A stretch of 64,000 nt of DNA from Acidobacteriota bacterium (GTDB lineage: Bacteria; Acidobacteriota; Terriglobia; UBA7540). How positions within the stretch are numbered: the first letter of the stretch is position 1; the number at the start of each line of letters is the position of its first letter. Below are positions 4,121 to 11,180 of the stretch, piece by piece. The position numbers were made by a program, and so were the translations under genes. The notes below the pieces were generated by a model. That model was not told the DNA's origin, did not search any database, and saw only the letters and a list, made by a program, of their open reading frames with translations. The stretch spans positions 1-64,000 of the forward strand of contig CADDZE010000005.1 of the NCBI GenBank assembly GCA_902812465.1, read 5' to 3'.

Positions 4121-4819
4121 ATGCGGAAGAGGCTTATCCAGGTGGCTGTGTCAGCAGGCGTTCTATACGGCCTGCTGGTGGCTGGCCTATTCTGGGCGAT
4201 GTACCAGCCTCCGGCGGTGTTTGGCCGTATCATGTCGAAAACGCCGCCGGTCGCCTACTGGGTGCTCCCTTTCCGGCGGCTGTGGTTCGTGGCGCGGCGC
4301 GGGCAGCTCCACAGCGGCGATCTGGCGCCTGACTTCTCCCTGTCGACGCCGGACGGAAGCACCCAGGTCCGGCTCTCTTCCTTCCGCGGGCACAAGCCGG
4401 TGGTACTCATCTTCGGCAGCCACACTTGACCTCCTTTTCGCCGGGAGGTTCCCGAGCTCAACCGCATCTATCGCCGTTACAAGGATCGCGCCGCGTTCTT
4501 TGTGGTCTACATTCAGGAGGCCCATCCAGCCGACGGATGGCAGATGCCCGAGAACCTGAAAGAGGGGATTTTGATTACTAGCCCGCGCAGCCTTCTGCAG
4601 CGCGAGAAGGTGGCCGGCGCTTGCGTGCGAAAGCTCGGGCTGGAGATCCCGGCGCTGGTGGACGATTTTGCCGACTCAACCGAGATCGCGTACACGGCTT
4701 GGCCTGACCGCCTCTACGTCATCGATCGTGACGGCCACGTTGCCTTTAAGAGTGATCCCGGCCCCTTCGGGTTTAAGCCCGCCCTGATGGAGAAAGCACT
4801 GGCACGCGTGACGATGTAA
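4121..4819 (+). CDS. Deiodinase-like membrane-anchored selenoprotein (TGA at 4427-4429 read as Sec)
   Basis: Reading TGA 4427-4429 as selenocysteine gives one 232-residue protein. Residues 4-27 (RLIQVAVSAGVLYGLLVAGL and following) form one membrane anchor, then a linker, then from about residue 66 a thioredoxin fold. The active site reads GSHTUPPFR (99-107, Sec103), the same layout as animal iodothyronine deiodinases (GSCTUPPF). Further hallmarks follow in the same frame: VYIQEAHPADGW (129-140, with the conserved Glu and His), VDDFADSTEIAYTAWPDRLY and DGHVAFKSDPGPFGF. Conservation on both sides of the TGA without any frame change argues against a simple nonsense mutation. Bacterial deiodinase-like proteins are known mainly from sequence; the substrate is not predictable, and a thiol/selenol redox or dehalogenation role is inferred. 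ATG 4121 is preferred because the membrane anchor follows at once. An extended -10-like TGTACAAT lies at 4097-4104. The gene stands alone, downstream of a TonB-receptor remnant. Confidence 0.82.
4430..4454 (+). promoter_or_regulatory. Candidate bacterial SECIS element of the deiodinase-like gene
   Basis: Directly after the in-frame TGA the mRNA can form a hairpin with stem CGGGA (4442-4446) and UCCCG (4450-4454) enclosing the loop GGU (4447-4449). The stem starts 12 nt after the UGA. In the well-studied E. coli fdhF element the SelB-binding mini-hairpin starts 11 nt after UGA and carries GGU in its loop, so position and loop content both agree. An alternative helix CCUCC/GGAGG (4430-4434 with 4444-4448) competes with it. 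The match was read by eye; no folding energy was computed. Confidence 0.7.
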
Positions 4820-4906: not shown

Positions 4907-6034
4907 CTAACCTGCCAGAACCTTCCTGGCGGGCTCGCCGAACGTCTCCCGCGATTCGCGTCCCAGCTCGCGCACGGCGAGAAACTGGGTGAGCCGGGGA
5001 ACCGCAGGTGCGACGAAGCGGATGCCAAAAGCCTGCAATAGGACCTGGGCTGGCATGCTCACCACACTCAGCAGGATCAGGATGACTCCCGTCAGCACCA
5101 TCAGGGCCAGCAACGCCACAACCATCGTTAACGGATTCCACGTCCACCCGACGCCCAGCAGGCGCAACCCGAGGACGACCACCACACCGGTAATGACTGC
5201 GCCGGAGAAGAGGAAGACCAGGATCGGGAAGAGCACGAGCAGCACCAGGGCACCTGCTACCACCGAGACGACAAGGCGCAATAGCACATAGAGCAGGAAA
5301 GCTCCCGCCCGCTCGCGCGCCAAGGCGGCCAGCTGGCGCCAGGCTTTGGACAAGGGCAACTGTTCGGCATACATCAGGGGTACCGCCAAATCGTCGGTGA
5401 GCGCAACCAGGATGGCAAGCGCAGCGCCGGCGCCGACGTCAGCGACAAGGATGGCCACCAGCTCGGCCCAGAAGGTGACAGACCGGACTCCACCAGCGGC
5501 CAGCGCGCGGAGGTGGGGAAATGCTGTGACAGCGCCGGCCGTAAGCGCCAAGCCTACTCCCATCAGCGCGGCCAGAAGCCACCTAAAATACGAACGGCCC
5601 ATGGGCCGAACCTCTTTCCACGCACGGGCCAAGGTGACCTTCCCGTGAAGGATGGAATCGACCAAGACGAAGCGGAGCATGGCGCGCATGTAGAGCAAGC
5701 CCACCGCGGCTCCCAGGAATGCCGTTCCCCCCACGACGATTAGCCAAAGATGATCCGATAGATACTGCCTCCAGCGGGCCATTGCTTCCTGGAAGCCGAG
5801 GTCGCCAGGAAGTGAGCCGAGGCTCCAGTTAAAGGCCGCCGACGAAGTGCCACCCCCCAGAAAGAGGCAGATGAAGCTGAGCCCCAGCCAAAGCCTCACG
5901 TCAAGAGGTCGGAAAAGTAGGATCAGAGTGTCGTTCAGCGCCTTCGAGAGAGCGCGGACGGGAGCAAAGTCAGGGTAGCCGCCGGTGGTGGGCGGGTGCA
6001 CATCCCTGGCGGGACTCGCCTCCGCGTTCAGCAT
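4907..6034 (-). CDS. Polytopic membrane protein of unknown function
   Basis: A 375-residue protein with a soluble N-terminus of about 50 residues (TLILLFRPLDVRLWLGLSFI near the first membrane segment) and roughly six to seven hydrophobic segments, including WLIVVGGTAFLGAAVGLLYM, FLLYVLLRLVVSVVAGALVL and MVVALLALMVLTGVILILLS. It resembles the DUF4013/DUF7544-type membrane proteins of unknown function; no catalytic motif is visible. Its start overlaps the end of the histidine kinase gene by 7 bases, so the two are translationally coupled and it is the third gene of the NtrC/kinase operon. It may be an accessory or output of that signalling system, but this is only inferred from position. Confidence 0.75.
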   Translation of the reverse strand: MLNAEASPARDVHPPTTGGYPDFAPVRALSKALNDTLILLFRPLDVRLWLGLSFICLFLGGGTSSAAFNWSLGSLPGDLGFQEAMARWRQYLSDHLWLIVVGGTAFLGAAVGLLYMRAMLRFVLVDSILHGKVTLARAWKEVRPMGRSYFRWLLAALMGVGLALTAGAVTAFPHLRALAAGGVRSVTFWAELVAILVADVGAGAALAILVALTDDLAVPLMYAEQLPLSKAWRQLAALARERAGAFLLYVLLRLVVSVVAGALVLLVLFPILVFLFSGAVITGVVVVLGLRLLGVGWTWNPLTMVVALLALMVLTGVILILLSVVSMPAQVLLQAFGIRFVAPAVPRLTQFLAVRELGRESRETFGEPARKVLAG

Positions 6035-7860: not shown

Positions 7861-9205
7861 ATTCCTTGAGCTTGTTGTGCAGGGTCTTCAAGCTGATCCC
7901 CAGCATCTCAGCGGCCCGCGTCTTGTTGTTCCTGGTGAAGTTCAGCGTCTCAAGGATGAGCCGGCGTTCGGCCTCCGCCACGGTGAGGCCGGGGCGGAGG
8001 GTCAAACCGTTGTCCACACTGGGCGGGGGCAGGCCGAAGGTTTTAGGGATATTCTCCCGCCTCAGCACGTCGCCAGGCTGAACCAGGATGGCGCGTTCCA
8101 GCACATTACGCAGCTCGCGGACGTTGCCCGGCCAAGAATAGTTCCGGAACATGTCCAGGACTTCGTCCTCCACCCACTTGACGCGGCGGCCGTGCTTGCG
8201 GTTCAGGTCCTCGAGCAGTGCGGCGATCAGGTCCGGCAAATCCTCCAGGTGCTCGCGCAAAGGCGGCATAAAGATCTGCACGACGTTGAGGCGATAGTAG
8301 AGGTCGCTGCGCAATTGTCCCTTGGCCAGCGCCTCCTCGGGAATCTTGTTGGTGGCGGCCAAGACCCGCACGTCTACGGAAATCTCGGTCTTACTGCCCA
8401 AACGGCGGACCTTCGAGTCCTCGAGCACGCGCAAAAGTTTGGCTTGGGTGGCGATGGGCATTTCGCCGATCTCATCCAGCAGCAACGTGCCTCCGTCCGC
8501 CAGCTCGAAACAACCGGCCCGTCGCTCCATAGCGCCAGTGAACGCCCCCTTCTCGTGGCCCAGAATTTCGCTCTCCATCAGCGTTTCCGGAATGGCCGCG
8601 CAGTTAACCGCGACAAAGGGCTTGGAAGCGCGAGGACTCAATTCGTGGATGGTGCGCGCCGCCAGTTCCTTTCCCGTGCCGCTCTCCCCGGTAATCAGCA
8701 CCGAGGCGCTCGACGGGGCCACCTGGGCAATCAGTGAGAGCACCTCCTGCATGCGCTTGGACTGCCCCACCAGATTTCCCAGGATGCCCGCATCCCGCAG
8801 GCGGCGGTGGGCGATCTCCAGGCGGCGCTCGCTATCCTGCTGCTTCAAGCAATTTTCCAGTTCGACGCGGAGCCGGTTGGGATCGAGGGGCTTCTCGAGG
8901 AACGTGTACGCTCCCAACTTGGTAGCTGCTACCGCTTCGTCGATGGTACCTTGACCGGTCAACATGATGAAGGCGACGGCACTGTGCTCCTGGCGAACCT
9001 GTTTGAGCAGCTCCATGCCGTCCAGATGCGGCATGCGGAGGTCTGAGATGACTACTCGAGGATTGCCCGTCTGGATTCGCTCCAAGGCCTCCCGTCCGTC
9101 GGCAGCCACGCTGGTATCGTAGCCCCAGCTGTCGAGTAGGGTTGCCAGGCCCTCCCGCTCCGCGGCCTCATCATCCACCACCAGCACTCGCACACCTCTT
9201 GGCAT
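7838..9205 (-). CDS. NtrC-family sigma-54-dependent response regulator
   Basis: A 455-residue protein with three domains. The receiver (about 6-120) has acidic pair Asp11-Asp12, phospho-acceptor Asp55 (VVISDLRMP) and Lys in FLEKPLDP. The AAA+ sigma-54 interaction domain (about 145-375) has Walker A GESGTGKE, the sigma-54 contact loop GAFTGA and Walker B GGTLLLDEIGE. The Fis-type helix-turn-helix is near the C-terminus (NNKTRAAEMLGISLKTLHNK). The start at 9205 is chosen because GAGG lies a few bases upstream and MPRGVRVLVVDDE begins the receiver; an in-frame start at 9280 would add an unlikely 25-residue tail. It is the first gene of an operon with the kinase and a membrane protein. A canonical -24/-12 promoter stands about 190 bp away, facing the other way. 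Confidence 0.94.
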   Translation of the reverse strand: MPRGVRVLVVDDEAAEREGLATLLDSWGYDTSVAADGREALERIQTGNPRVVISDLRMPHLDGMELLKQVRQEHSAVAFIMLTGQGTIDEAVAATKLGAYTFLEKPLDPNRLRVELENCLKQQDSERRLEIAHRRLRDAGILGNLVGQSKRMQEVLSLIAQVAPSSASVLITGESGTGKELAARTIHELSPRASKPFVAVNCAAIPETLMESEILGHEKGAFTGAMERRAGCFELADGGTLLLDEIGEMPIATQAKLLRVLEDSKVRRLGSKTEISVDVRVLAATNKIPEEALAKGQLRSDLYYRLNVVQIFMPPLREHLEDLPDLIAALLEDLNRKHGRRVKWVEDEVLDMFRNYSWPGNVRELRNVLERAILVQPGDVLRRENIPKTFGLPPPSVDNGLTLRPGLTVAEAERRLILETLNFTRNNKTRAAEMLGISLKTLHNKLKEYESQPQN

Positions 9206-9302
9206 GCTAGCCTCTACTGCAGTGTCAATTGTGTGCCTCGCCTTCGCGGGAATTGGGCTTCCCCCTGTCAGCTTGGCCACTCCGTCCGATTTACGGCGTC
9301 AC

Positions 9303-9351
9303 TGTAATTCTTACACGAAAGCGAATAAAGAAACTAGCCAGGCGATGGCTA
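9303..9351. promoter_or_regulatory. Two inverted repeats, candidate activator sites for the NtrC-type regulator
   Basis: TGTAA-N3-TTACA (9303-9315) and TAGCC-N7-GGCTA (9335-9351) are perfect dyads. They lie about 40-90 bp upstream of the -24 box at 9393, where enhancer sites of sigma-54 activators are usually found, and about 100-150 bp upstream of the regulator gene itself. Assignment to this regulator is inference; the two sequences differ from each other, so at most one need be its site. Confidence 0.4.
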
Positions 9352-9392
9352 TCTCGCGCCGTTGCAGTTAGATGGGGGTCGGGTTGGGGCGT

Positions 9393-9408
9393 TGGCACCC
9401 GAGTTGCT
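9393..9408 (+). promoter_or_regulatory. Sigma-54 (-24/-12) promoter
   Basis: TGGCACCCGAGTTGCT matches the sigma-54 consensus TGGCAC-N5-TTGCW fully. The invariant GG (9394-9395) and GC (9406-9407) are exactly 10 bases apart. Transcription would begin near 9419, just ahead of the AAGGAG ribosome site (9424-9429) and the ATG at 9436, giving a leader of under 20 nt. Confidence 0.88.
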
Positions 9409-9435
9409 CGGACTCAAGTCGCGAAGGAGTCGGCG

Positions 9436-9915
9436 ATGCGACTCGAGGATCGATGGCAGGGCTCGTTGCTAGCAGTGGCCATGGCCGTGGGCCTAGCACT
9501 ACTGTTATTTGCTCTGAAGCCCTCGAGGGGCGGAAGCGCGATCCCCGCGCCCTCACTCCCGGCCGGAACCGAGGTGACCGTGCGTCTGCTCCGTCCGGTT
9601 TCCTCCAGGACCATCCATCTTGGTGACCGGTTCGCTGGCCAGCTGACCAGCGTCGATCCGCCGTACGGCACGCTTCTGCCTGGCGGCGCGGAGGTGGAGG
9701 GACGATGCGTGGCAGCGCGCAGCGCCACGCCCAGCCGCTCCGGGTATCTTCGCCTCGTGCTGTACGCGATTCGCATCCCCACTGGGCGCCTGGTGTCTTT
9801 GCATTCTACCACCCTAATCGAACGCGGCTCCGCCCCGCTCGTCGACGCACAACTGGATACCTCGGTTCCTCTGCGTTTCACGTTGCTGGAGCCGGTCCTG
9901 ATTCCGCCGCGGTAG
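9436..9915 (+). CDS. Secreted or membrane-anchored protein of unknown function, sigma-54 controlled
   Basis: A 159-residue protein. Residues about 10-28 (SLLAVAMAVGLALLLFALKP) are a signal peptide or anchor. The rest is beta-rich, with LPAGTEVTVRLLRPVSS, HLGDRFAGQL, LLPGGAEVEGRCVAA and VPLRFTLLEPVLIPP, resembling small acidobacterial envelope proteins with a 'GDRF ... LPxGAxVxG' pattern whose role is unknown. ATG 9436 is chosen because AAGGAG lies 6 bases ahead and a perfect sigma-54 promoter sits just upstream; longer in-frame starts would cross that promoter. It diverges from the NtrC-type regulator and is its best candidate target. Its 3' end overlaps the convergent dehydrogenase gene by 38 bases. 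Confidence 0.78.
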   Translation: MRLEDRWQGSLLAVAMAVGLALLLFALKPSRGGSAIPAPSLPAGTEVTVRLLRPVSSRTIHLGDRFAGQLTSVDPPYGTLLPGGAEVEGRCVAARSATPSRSGYLRLVLYAIRIPTGRLVSLHSTTLIERGSAPLVDAQLDTSVPLRFTLLEPVLIPPR

Positions 9916-10813
9916 CCATCCCGCGAGCCCGCGAGGAATCGAGCCCGGCGCGGTCACTGGCGAGCTTAACCAGCGCACACCAGTCTTTTTCGCCCCAGCC
10001 CCGCGCCAGCCCACTCAAGAGCTGATCATAGACCAGGCTGGCCACCGGCATGGGCACGGCCGCCTCCTCAGCCGCGGCCAGAACCAGACGCGCGTCCTTC
10101 AAACCCAGGCGCAAGGTGAAGCCGGCTGGCTCAAATCGCTGTTCGAGCATCAGGCGCCCGTAATTCTCGTAGACGGGCGACCGGAACAGGCTGCCGTTGA
10201 CGATCTCCAGCAGTCGCGCCGGATCGATGCCGGACTTGCGGAGCAAGGCGAACGCTTCGGCCAGTGCCTCCAGCACAGAAGCGATCAAGAAATTGCCTGC
10301 CAGCTTCAGCGTGTTGGCTAAGGCGGGTTCGGGACCCAGCACGAAGAGCTGCTGGCCGATCGCCTCGAGCAGCGGACGGCACCTGGCAATCGCCTCGTCG
10401 GCTCCAGCTGCCACCACGACCAGGCGTCCGGCCTCGGCCGCGTCTGGCCTTCCGAACACGGGGGAGGAGATCAGCCACTGGTTCCGCGTCCGATGCTCCG
10501 CGGCTAGCCTTTTGGCCAAGCCAACGCTCACCGTGCTCAGTGAGAGATGTACGCCTCCGGCGGGCAGACTGTCGAGAATGCCCCTGGGAGCGAAGGCGTA
10601 CGCCTCCAGCGCCTGGTCATCGGCGAGCATCGTCAGAACCGTGCCGGTAGCGCAAGGCTCCGCCACCGAGGCGGCCACCGTGGCGCCTGGCCCGGCCAGA
10701 GCCCGCGCCCGGCTGCGCGTGCGGTTGAAGACAATCAGTTGGTGGCCGGCGGCGATCAGCCGTCGCGCGATAGGTGCGCCCATCTTACCCAGTCCAATGA
10801 ATCCTGCCTGCAT
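9878..10813 (-). CDS. NAD(P)-dependent beta-hydroxyacid dehydrogenase (HIBADH/GLYR family)
   Basis: A 311-residue protein with the N-terminal Rossmann motif GFIGLGKMGAPIARRL (4-19), the substrate-binding stretch in the position of the family DxPVSGG motif (here SPVFGRPDAAEAGRL) and the catalytic-lysine helix LKLAGNFLIAS. The family oxidises 3-hydroxyisobutyrate, tartronate semialdehyde or related beta-hydroxyacids; the canonical PVSGG is altered to PVFGR, so the substrate is not predictable. GGAGG lies just upstream of ATG 10813. It is a single gene. Confidence 0.85.
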   Translation of the reverse strand: MQAGFIGLGKMGAPIARRLIAAGHQLIVFNRTRSRARALAGPGATVAASVAEPCATGTVLTMLADDQALEAYAFAPRGILDSLPAGGVHLSLSTVSVGLAKRLAAEHRTRNQWLISSPVFGRPDAAEAGRLVVVAAGADEAIARCRPLLEAIGQQLFVLGPEPALANTLKLAGNFLIASVLEALAEAFALLRKSGIDPARLLEIVNGSLFRSPVYENYGRLMLEQRFEPAGFTLRLGLKDARLVLAAAEEAAVPMPVASLVYDQLLSGLARGWGEKDWCALVKLASDRAGLDSSRARGMATAAESGPAPAT

Positions 10814-10919
10814 ACTTGCCTCCGGCGCTGAGAGTCAGCCATAGTGTAGACTTTCGCGCCACAGAGTGCGAGCCGTTCGAGGAAGGAGGTCCGGGAGCCT
10901 CCAAACTACAAGGTGGACT

Positions 10920-11180
10920 ATGCCCCTCTACTTTGCCGCCCACACCACTGCCTGCCTCACCAAGCAGGCCCTGCGCCAACTCATGCTGGAGCTGCTCGGC
11001 TCAGGCACCCCTAAAGTGCGCCGCTGCGTGGCCAGCCAGCTGGGCGGGCGCATGCTCACCGAAGTGGAAGCCAGGGATCAGGCTAGCGTCGAGCGCTTCT
11101 TCGAACAAAAGCGCGTCAACTGGGAGTGGATCATGCGGATCGACCTCGATGGTCGCGAAGGGGTGGTGACCGAGGAGTGA
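10920..11180 (+). CDS. Small conserved-looking hypothetical protein
   Basis: An 86-residue soluble protein, MPLYFAAHTTACLTK..., ending in an acidic tail VVTEE. The predicted order of strands and helices (MPLYFAAHT, a helix with KQALRQLMLELL, a strand with RMLTEVEA, a helix with VERFFEQKRV, a strand with WIMRIDL) could form a ferredoxin-like fold, as in DUF4242-type proteins, but no signature residue confirms this. AAGGTGG just ahead of ATG 10920 supports this start over an in-frame ATG at 10866. It diverges from the dehydrogenase gene. Confidence 0.6.
   Translation: MPLYFAAHTTACLTKQALRQLMLELLGSGTPKVRRCVASQLGGRMLTEVEARDQASVERFFEQKRVNWEWIMRIDLDGREGVVTEE

Follow-up and report, generated by a model that had tools for sequence, protein, structure and literature searches.

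The gene and its predicted product

The window, i.e. the whole 64,000-nucleotide stretch of DNA that was analysed, comes from a soil-type acidobacterium and holds on its forward strand a gene for a deiodinase-like protein, related to the animal enzymes by which thyroid hormone is activated. The gene runs from an ATG at 4121 to a TAA at 4817-4819. As an earlier reading made from the DNA letters alone (below, the sequence-only reading) had claimed, the frame is broken only by a TGA at 4427-4429, which is its sole internal stop. When this TGA is read through, the product is 232 amino acids long with Sec at position 103. The expectation that gene callers would fragment the gene was correct as well, since mechanical ORF calling gives 130 amino acids up to the TGA and a 105-amino-acid fragment starting at a GTG. 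No obvious Shine-Dalgarno motif was found upstream of 4121. The following features were assigned:

4121..4819, + strand: deiodinase-like putative selenoprotein gene, 232 codons plus TAA, Sec at codon 103 (PF00837, 103.7 bits)
4133..4201, + strand: predicted N-terminal transmembrane anchor, residues about 5-27 (hydropathy and flanking charges)
4301..4801, + strand: catalytic thioredoxin/peroxiredoxin-like deiodinase domain (PF00837 profile positions 71-233 of 237)
4427..4429, + strand: in-frame TGA, putative Sec codon equivalent to Dio3 Sec170 (TGA or Cys in homologues; lines up with the Cys substituted for Sec170 in 4tr3)
4440..4457, + strand: bacterial SECIS-type hairpin, in which 4440-4446 pair with 4450-4454 and 4456-4457 (compensatory changes, synonymous-codon null)

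The joined 232-residue protein was searched against PF00837 (T4_deiodinase), a check proposed together with the sequence-only reading, and matched with 103.7 bits (E 1.3e-29; curated cut-off 27 bits). A six-frame search of the genome with this profile recovered the match as well, with a single TGA inside it. The best matches among solved structures were mouse Dio3 (PDB 4tr3, E 2.2e-24) and Dio2 (9h48, E 4.3e-18), and weaker profile matches, both above their cut-offs, were obtained for Redoxin (44.6 bits) and AhpC-TSA (43.0 bits). The active-site string GSHT-TGA-PPF is the family motif Ser-x-Thr-U-Pro-Pro-Phe, the TGA aligns with Sec170 of Dio3 and so occupies the place of Sec in animal deiodinases that had been claimed for it, and EAHPADGW, PDRLYVI and SDPGPFGF were all confirmed to lie in the read-through frame. 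Together with the invariant catalytic residues described below, the profile and structure matches uphold the deiodinase-like identity.

The protein has one hydrophobic helix with a hydropathy of up to 2.05. The proposed membrane anchoring is supported by this hydropathy and by relatives whose Pfam matches extend into the N-terminal region of the profile. The charge balance agrees with an N-in orientation in 38 of 44 family members, from which the catalytic domain is predicted to lie, probably, on the periplasmic side.

The downstream neighbour, at 4907-6034 on the minus strand, is a membrane protein (PF24400, DUF7544). At 494-1717 on the plus strand a TPR-repeat protein extends over three frames (494-910, 949-1620 and 1373-1717) and is frameshifted or decayed; in related genomes (L044, L048) TPR proteins end in a deiodinase domain of the Cys type.

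Reading of the internal TGA

A PF00837 match over the cut-off was found in 22 of 40 genomes of the same order, most with exactly one TGA, and TGA stands at the homologous codon in 20 loci of these order relatives, wherever readable always within GS[HY]T-TGA-PPFRREVP. Class-wide, a match over the cut-off was present in 134 of 399 genomes and a copy with an internal TGA in 115 of 399; the site itself was read in the top 30 of these 115, and elsewhere its position was taken from the stop reported within the match. A scan of GTDB genome contigs with the single protein as query returned no relatives; an alignment-based scan of GTDB genomes gave at least 565, and the best 80 of them were retained. 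Among these best 80 of at least 565 relatives at least nine phyla are represented: Acidobacteriota, Planctomycetota, Verrucomicrobiota, Armatimonadota, Chloroflexota, Myxococcota (titled Deltaproteobacteria), Gemmatimonadota, Binatota and Poribacteria. A link to phages was dropped, as no relatives were found in the IMG/VR viral contigs.

In every cross-phylum relative that was read, the site is a TGA or a Cys codon only. Cys forms are GNFTCGPFR in Planctomycetota, GSYTCPPFR in Opitutaceae and a GS[YF]-type TCPN in the TPR-fused paralogues. On a tree built from 96 domains, 77 with Sec and 19 with Cys, four changes of state are required, at least three by starred branches; its two animal rows sit on long branches and their placement is unreliable. 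The close homologues have TGA or Cys at the site and their frame continues beyond it; none was found to end there or to carry another residue, and the sequence-only reading thus withstood this comparison.

It could be argued that the gene is a pseudogene, a sequencing error, or two unrelated fragments separated by an ordinary stop, in view of its being split by gene callers and of the few decayed copies known (L039, L049). However, the same TGA is found across scores of separate genomes, the sequence beyond it is under purifying selection and the SECIS is under selection too, so that we consider this explanation refuted. For 483 pairs of relatives dN/dS was 0.171 before the TGA, 0.088 in frame after it and above 2 in shifted frames after it; with synonymous sites near saturation in these pairs the figures are rough, but the contrast between frames is firm. 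The copies L039 and L049 themselves have extra stops (TAG, TAA) or a frameshift and are apparently decaying selenoprotein genes.

The hairpin downstream of the TGA has the apical loop GGU (4447-4449) and a bulge at 4455. Two registers occur in the family, with the loop at +20 or at +24 after the UGA: the former in f1, most of f6 and most other phyla, the latter in part of f6. The stem shows compensatory changes (CGGGA-GGU-UCCCG versus CGCCA-GGU-UGGCG), and in the second register four pairs covary, with pairing in 100% of their cells. The covariation scores were reached by 0 of 500 shuffles, with the reservation that the registers were split after inspection of the sequences, so that these counts lean towards structure. 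As the stem is also protein-coding, an independent test was made in which synonymous codons were redrawn. Sec genes scored 15.7 versus 9.5 for the synonymous shuffles (z 17.8, 0 of 300), and Sec genes of GTDB-scan loci outside the family of the window gene gave z 15.0. In contrast, Cys genes scored 7.05 versus 7.10 (z -0.1), which shows that the hairpin tracks the UGA and not the protein. Folding of the window gene's own sequence alone gave weak z-scores, and ViennaRNA placed a competing hairpin at -11.7 kcal/mol versus -9.8 kcal/mol for the SECIS register; the comparison across genes is decisive.

If TGA stood for a standard amino acid, e.g. Trp, in this genome, the deiodinase frame would likewise be read through. 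This explanation is also regarded as refuted: more of the window's long frames end in TGA than in any other stop (23 of 44), which means that the code is not reassigned, relatives have Cys and never Trp at the site, and tRNA-Sec and the SECIS are present. On the comparative evidence, the TGA at 4427-4429 almost certainly encodes selenocysteine, and UGA codon 103 would be decoded by SelB and tRNA-Sec at the SECIS hairpin that starts 10 nt downstream.

Selenocysteine machinery and gene neighbourhoods

Absence of the Sec machinery would have spoken against this decoding, and the genome to which the window belongs (3.9 Mb, 190 contigs, 98.6% complete) was found to contain all of it: selA (576 bits), selB (370 bits), selD (383 bits) and a tRNA-Sec with a UCA anticodon, identified by covariance model and ARAGORN. 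A second tRNA-Sec match (47.7 bits) proved to be a tRNA-Ser. The sel genes lie on other contigs than the deiodinase gene. The selD gene (contig C42:3121-4047, L021) has an in-frame TGA of its own, and the selenophosphate synthetase would accordingly be a second selenoprotein of this genome.

Across the class a strong selA match was present in 110 of the 115 genomes with a TGA deiodinase gene (Fisher p 1.3e-12, ignoring relatedness). As for the five exceptions, selB exceeds the cut-off in G392 and G035, G335 (59% complete) has a selB fragment only, G356 is 55% complete, and G259 has no selA match in the genome and a truncated selB 0.9 kb before its TGA copy. At this last locus (L164) the N-terminally truncated selB occupies 7896-9530 and the TGA deiodinase gene about 10380-10950; possibly it is a decaying locus in a genome that is losing its Sec system.

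Gene neighbourhoods revealed no conserved operon within the window gene's own family, and apart from the sel genes no conserved neighbours pointing to a substrate; large frames resembling TonB/Oar-type receptors (by eye) lie downstream in some family members only. Across loci, selB alone recurs as a neighbour whose meaning is clear. In the Verrucomicrobiota loci L113 and L114, tRNA-Sec, selD, selA and selB are followed by the TGA deiodinase gene, and in L113 a transglutaminase-like gene (PF01841) separates selB from the deiodinase gene. The order is selA-selB-deiodinase in L107, and in L102 selB-selA is accompanied by a TusA-like gene, selD and the deiodinase gene pointing away from it. In the Planctomycetota locus L149, tRNA-Sec, selB and a transglutaminase-like gene lie about 2 kb upstream of the deiodinase gene. 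The PF01841 gene (L113 4750-5787, minus strand; L149 2851-3861, plus strand) is thus seen beside sel and deiodinase genes in two phyla. A planctomycete sel operon with a transglutaminase-core gene has been described in a paper that names no deiodinase in its main text (PMC4807772).

Catalytic site, possible substrates and known relatives

In 20 aligned relatives S100, T102, Sec103, Y130, E133, H135 and W140 are invariant, and so is the motif Ser-x-Thr-U-Pro-Pro-Phe as a whole. By structure-match alignment the seven residues correspond to Ser167, Thr169, Sec170, Tyr197, Glu200, His202 and Trp207 of Dio3, which include the core catalytic residues (PMC7506546, PMC11592359). Mutation of the Ser, Thr, Tyr or Glu lowers or abolishes the activity of Dio3, and Dio1 is dead without the His equivalent (PMC7506546).

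The positions of Dio3 His219 and Arg275, on the other hand, are Pro in the window protein and variable in the family. For Arg275 a role in holding the carboxylate of the substrate has been proposed (PMC11592359, PMC7506546); it is not conserved among Dio1-3 (PMC7506546). The intermediate is resolved by the proximal Cys, as was shown for Dio1 (PMC9141512) and has been proposed for Dio3 (PMC7506546), where this residue is Cys168; its position is His or Tyr here, and Phe in some relatives. At the position of the distal Cys239 of Dio3 a Cys is not conserved in the bacterial family. The alignments suggest that the site of the chemistry has been retained and the end that binds the hormone lost. As neither the substrate-clamping Arg nor the proximal resolving Cys is invariant, thyroid-hormone deiodination is an unlikely role, and since the Dio3 residues that hold the amino-acid end of an iodothyronine are missing, such a compound is probably not what the enzyme acts on in nature.

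No Cys was found at Sec-2 or Sec+3 in the 20 aligned relatives, and the resolving-Cys or CxxC feature of 2-Cys peroxiredoxins is thus missing. One Cys lies outside the active site, near residue 166, and is missing in f6 sequences. Judged by its sequence match to solved structures, the gene product appears to be a thioredoxin-fold selenol reductase. In the mechanism we propose, the single N-terminal helix would tether the catalytic domain on the periplasmic side, and a selenolate in the Ser-x-Thr-Sec/Tyr/Glu/His network would attack an electrophilic atom of a small substrate. In the absence of Cys at Sec-2 and Sec+3, the seleno-intermediate would then be reduced by an external thiol.

Among candidate substrates we rank a hydroperoxide or a comparable oxidised electrophile first, giving it an even chance. 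The specific role that we weakly favour, while holding it to be somewhat short of an even chance, is that of a peroxiredoxin- or glutathione-peroxidase-like peroxidase guarding the envelope from hydroperoxides. This role agrees with the Redoxin and AhpC-TSA matches, with the peroxiredoxin motif and module present in animal deiodinases (PMC11592359) and with the common exchange of Sec and Cys among peroxidases. However, the T4_deiodinase profile is ahead by about 60 bits, the invariant Glu/His/Trp set is of the deiodinase and not the peroxidase type, and the usual resolving Cys is missing. A halogenated aromatic compound is less likely than a hydroperoxide and, like a protein or small disulphide, an improbable substrate. 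The fuller proposal, i.e. a reductive dehalogenase of soil I-, Br- and Cl-aromatics that animals later narrowed to thyroid hormones, we find more doubtful still. The catalytic network and the Ser-x-Thr-Sec-Pro-Pro-Phe motif are those of animal deiodinases, and close relatives come from soil and groundwater bacteria according to record titles, but the positions of Arg275 and His219 are not kept, and no halogen-related gene recurs as a neighbour. Taken together, the window gene very probably encodes a membrane-anchored deiodinase-fold selenoenzyme with Sec at codon 103 and a substrate that is probably not an iodothyronine.

As a bacterial deiodinase-like selenoprotein the gene was correctly identified by the sequence-only reading, but the kind is not new. 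Bacterial deiodinase-like proteins, four with Sec and six with Cys, were reported from Sargasso Sea data in 2005 (PMC1088965), 22 Sec proteins followed from GOS data (PMC2398784), and the family is included in reviews from 2022 and 2026 (PMC9312934, PMC13188914), the latter stating that the functions of such proteins are largely unknown (PMC13188914). A deiodinase-like protein is also present in Dictyostelium, where thyroid hormones are not known (PMC2375036). Our literature search, outside which most subscription journals lay, found no papers on the abundance of the family in Acidobacteriota or on its position in sel clusters. The family was thus already known in bacteria, and its breadth and its linkage to sel operons are new.

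Gene callers halve these genes, and a family for which the literature searched gives only some dozens of marine sequences proves to be common. It offers many starting points for exploring the role of deiodinases before there were thyroid hormones, and the selC-selD-selA-selB linkage suggests that the deiodinase-like gene is an important selenium user in some bacteria. As a long shot, the family may be an old and large class of bacterial envelope selenoenzymes, with Sec as the usual state and possibly a sel-cluster gene, that was ancestral to the animal deiodinases and originally dehalogenated natural organohalides. If so, thyroid-hormone deiodination would be chemistry borrowed from soil or sea bacteria.

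Compared with known systems, the window protein resembles animal Dio1-3 in the position of the Sec codon, the Ser-x-Thr-Sec-Pro-Pro-Phe and EAHPxDGW motifs, the Tyr/Glu/His/Trp network, and the thioredoxin-like domain behind an N-terminal membrane helix. It differs in that its gene has an in-frame bacterial SECIS whereas the animal genes have a 3' UTR element, and in that no thyroid hormone is expected for the bacterial protein. With the Sargasso Sea and GOS proteins it shares the Pfam family, the occurrence of Sec and Cys forms and the G in the SECIS apical loop; compared by review descriptions, the marine set has UxxC, whereas the window protein has U-P-P-F with no Cys at Sec+3. The Acidobacteriota TPR-deiodinase fusions (L044, L048) share the domain, with Cys at the Sec position, but are about 550 amino acids long with TPR repeats in front and possibly, by eye, a signal sequence at the N-terminus instead of an anchor; the Cys genes, including these fusions, have no family-wide SECIS. 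Finally, ResA/DsbE/TlpA-type proteins resemble the window protein in their N-terminal anchor and thioredoxin-like domain, with weak PDB matches to ResA and DsbE, but they use a CxxC dithiol where the window protein has a single Sec and the deiodinase-specific EAHP loop.
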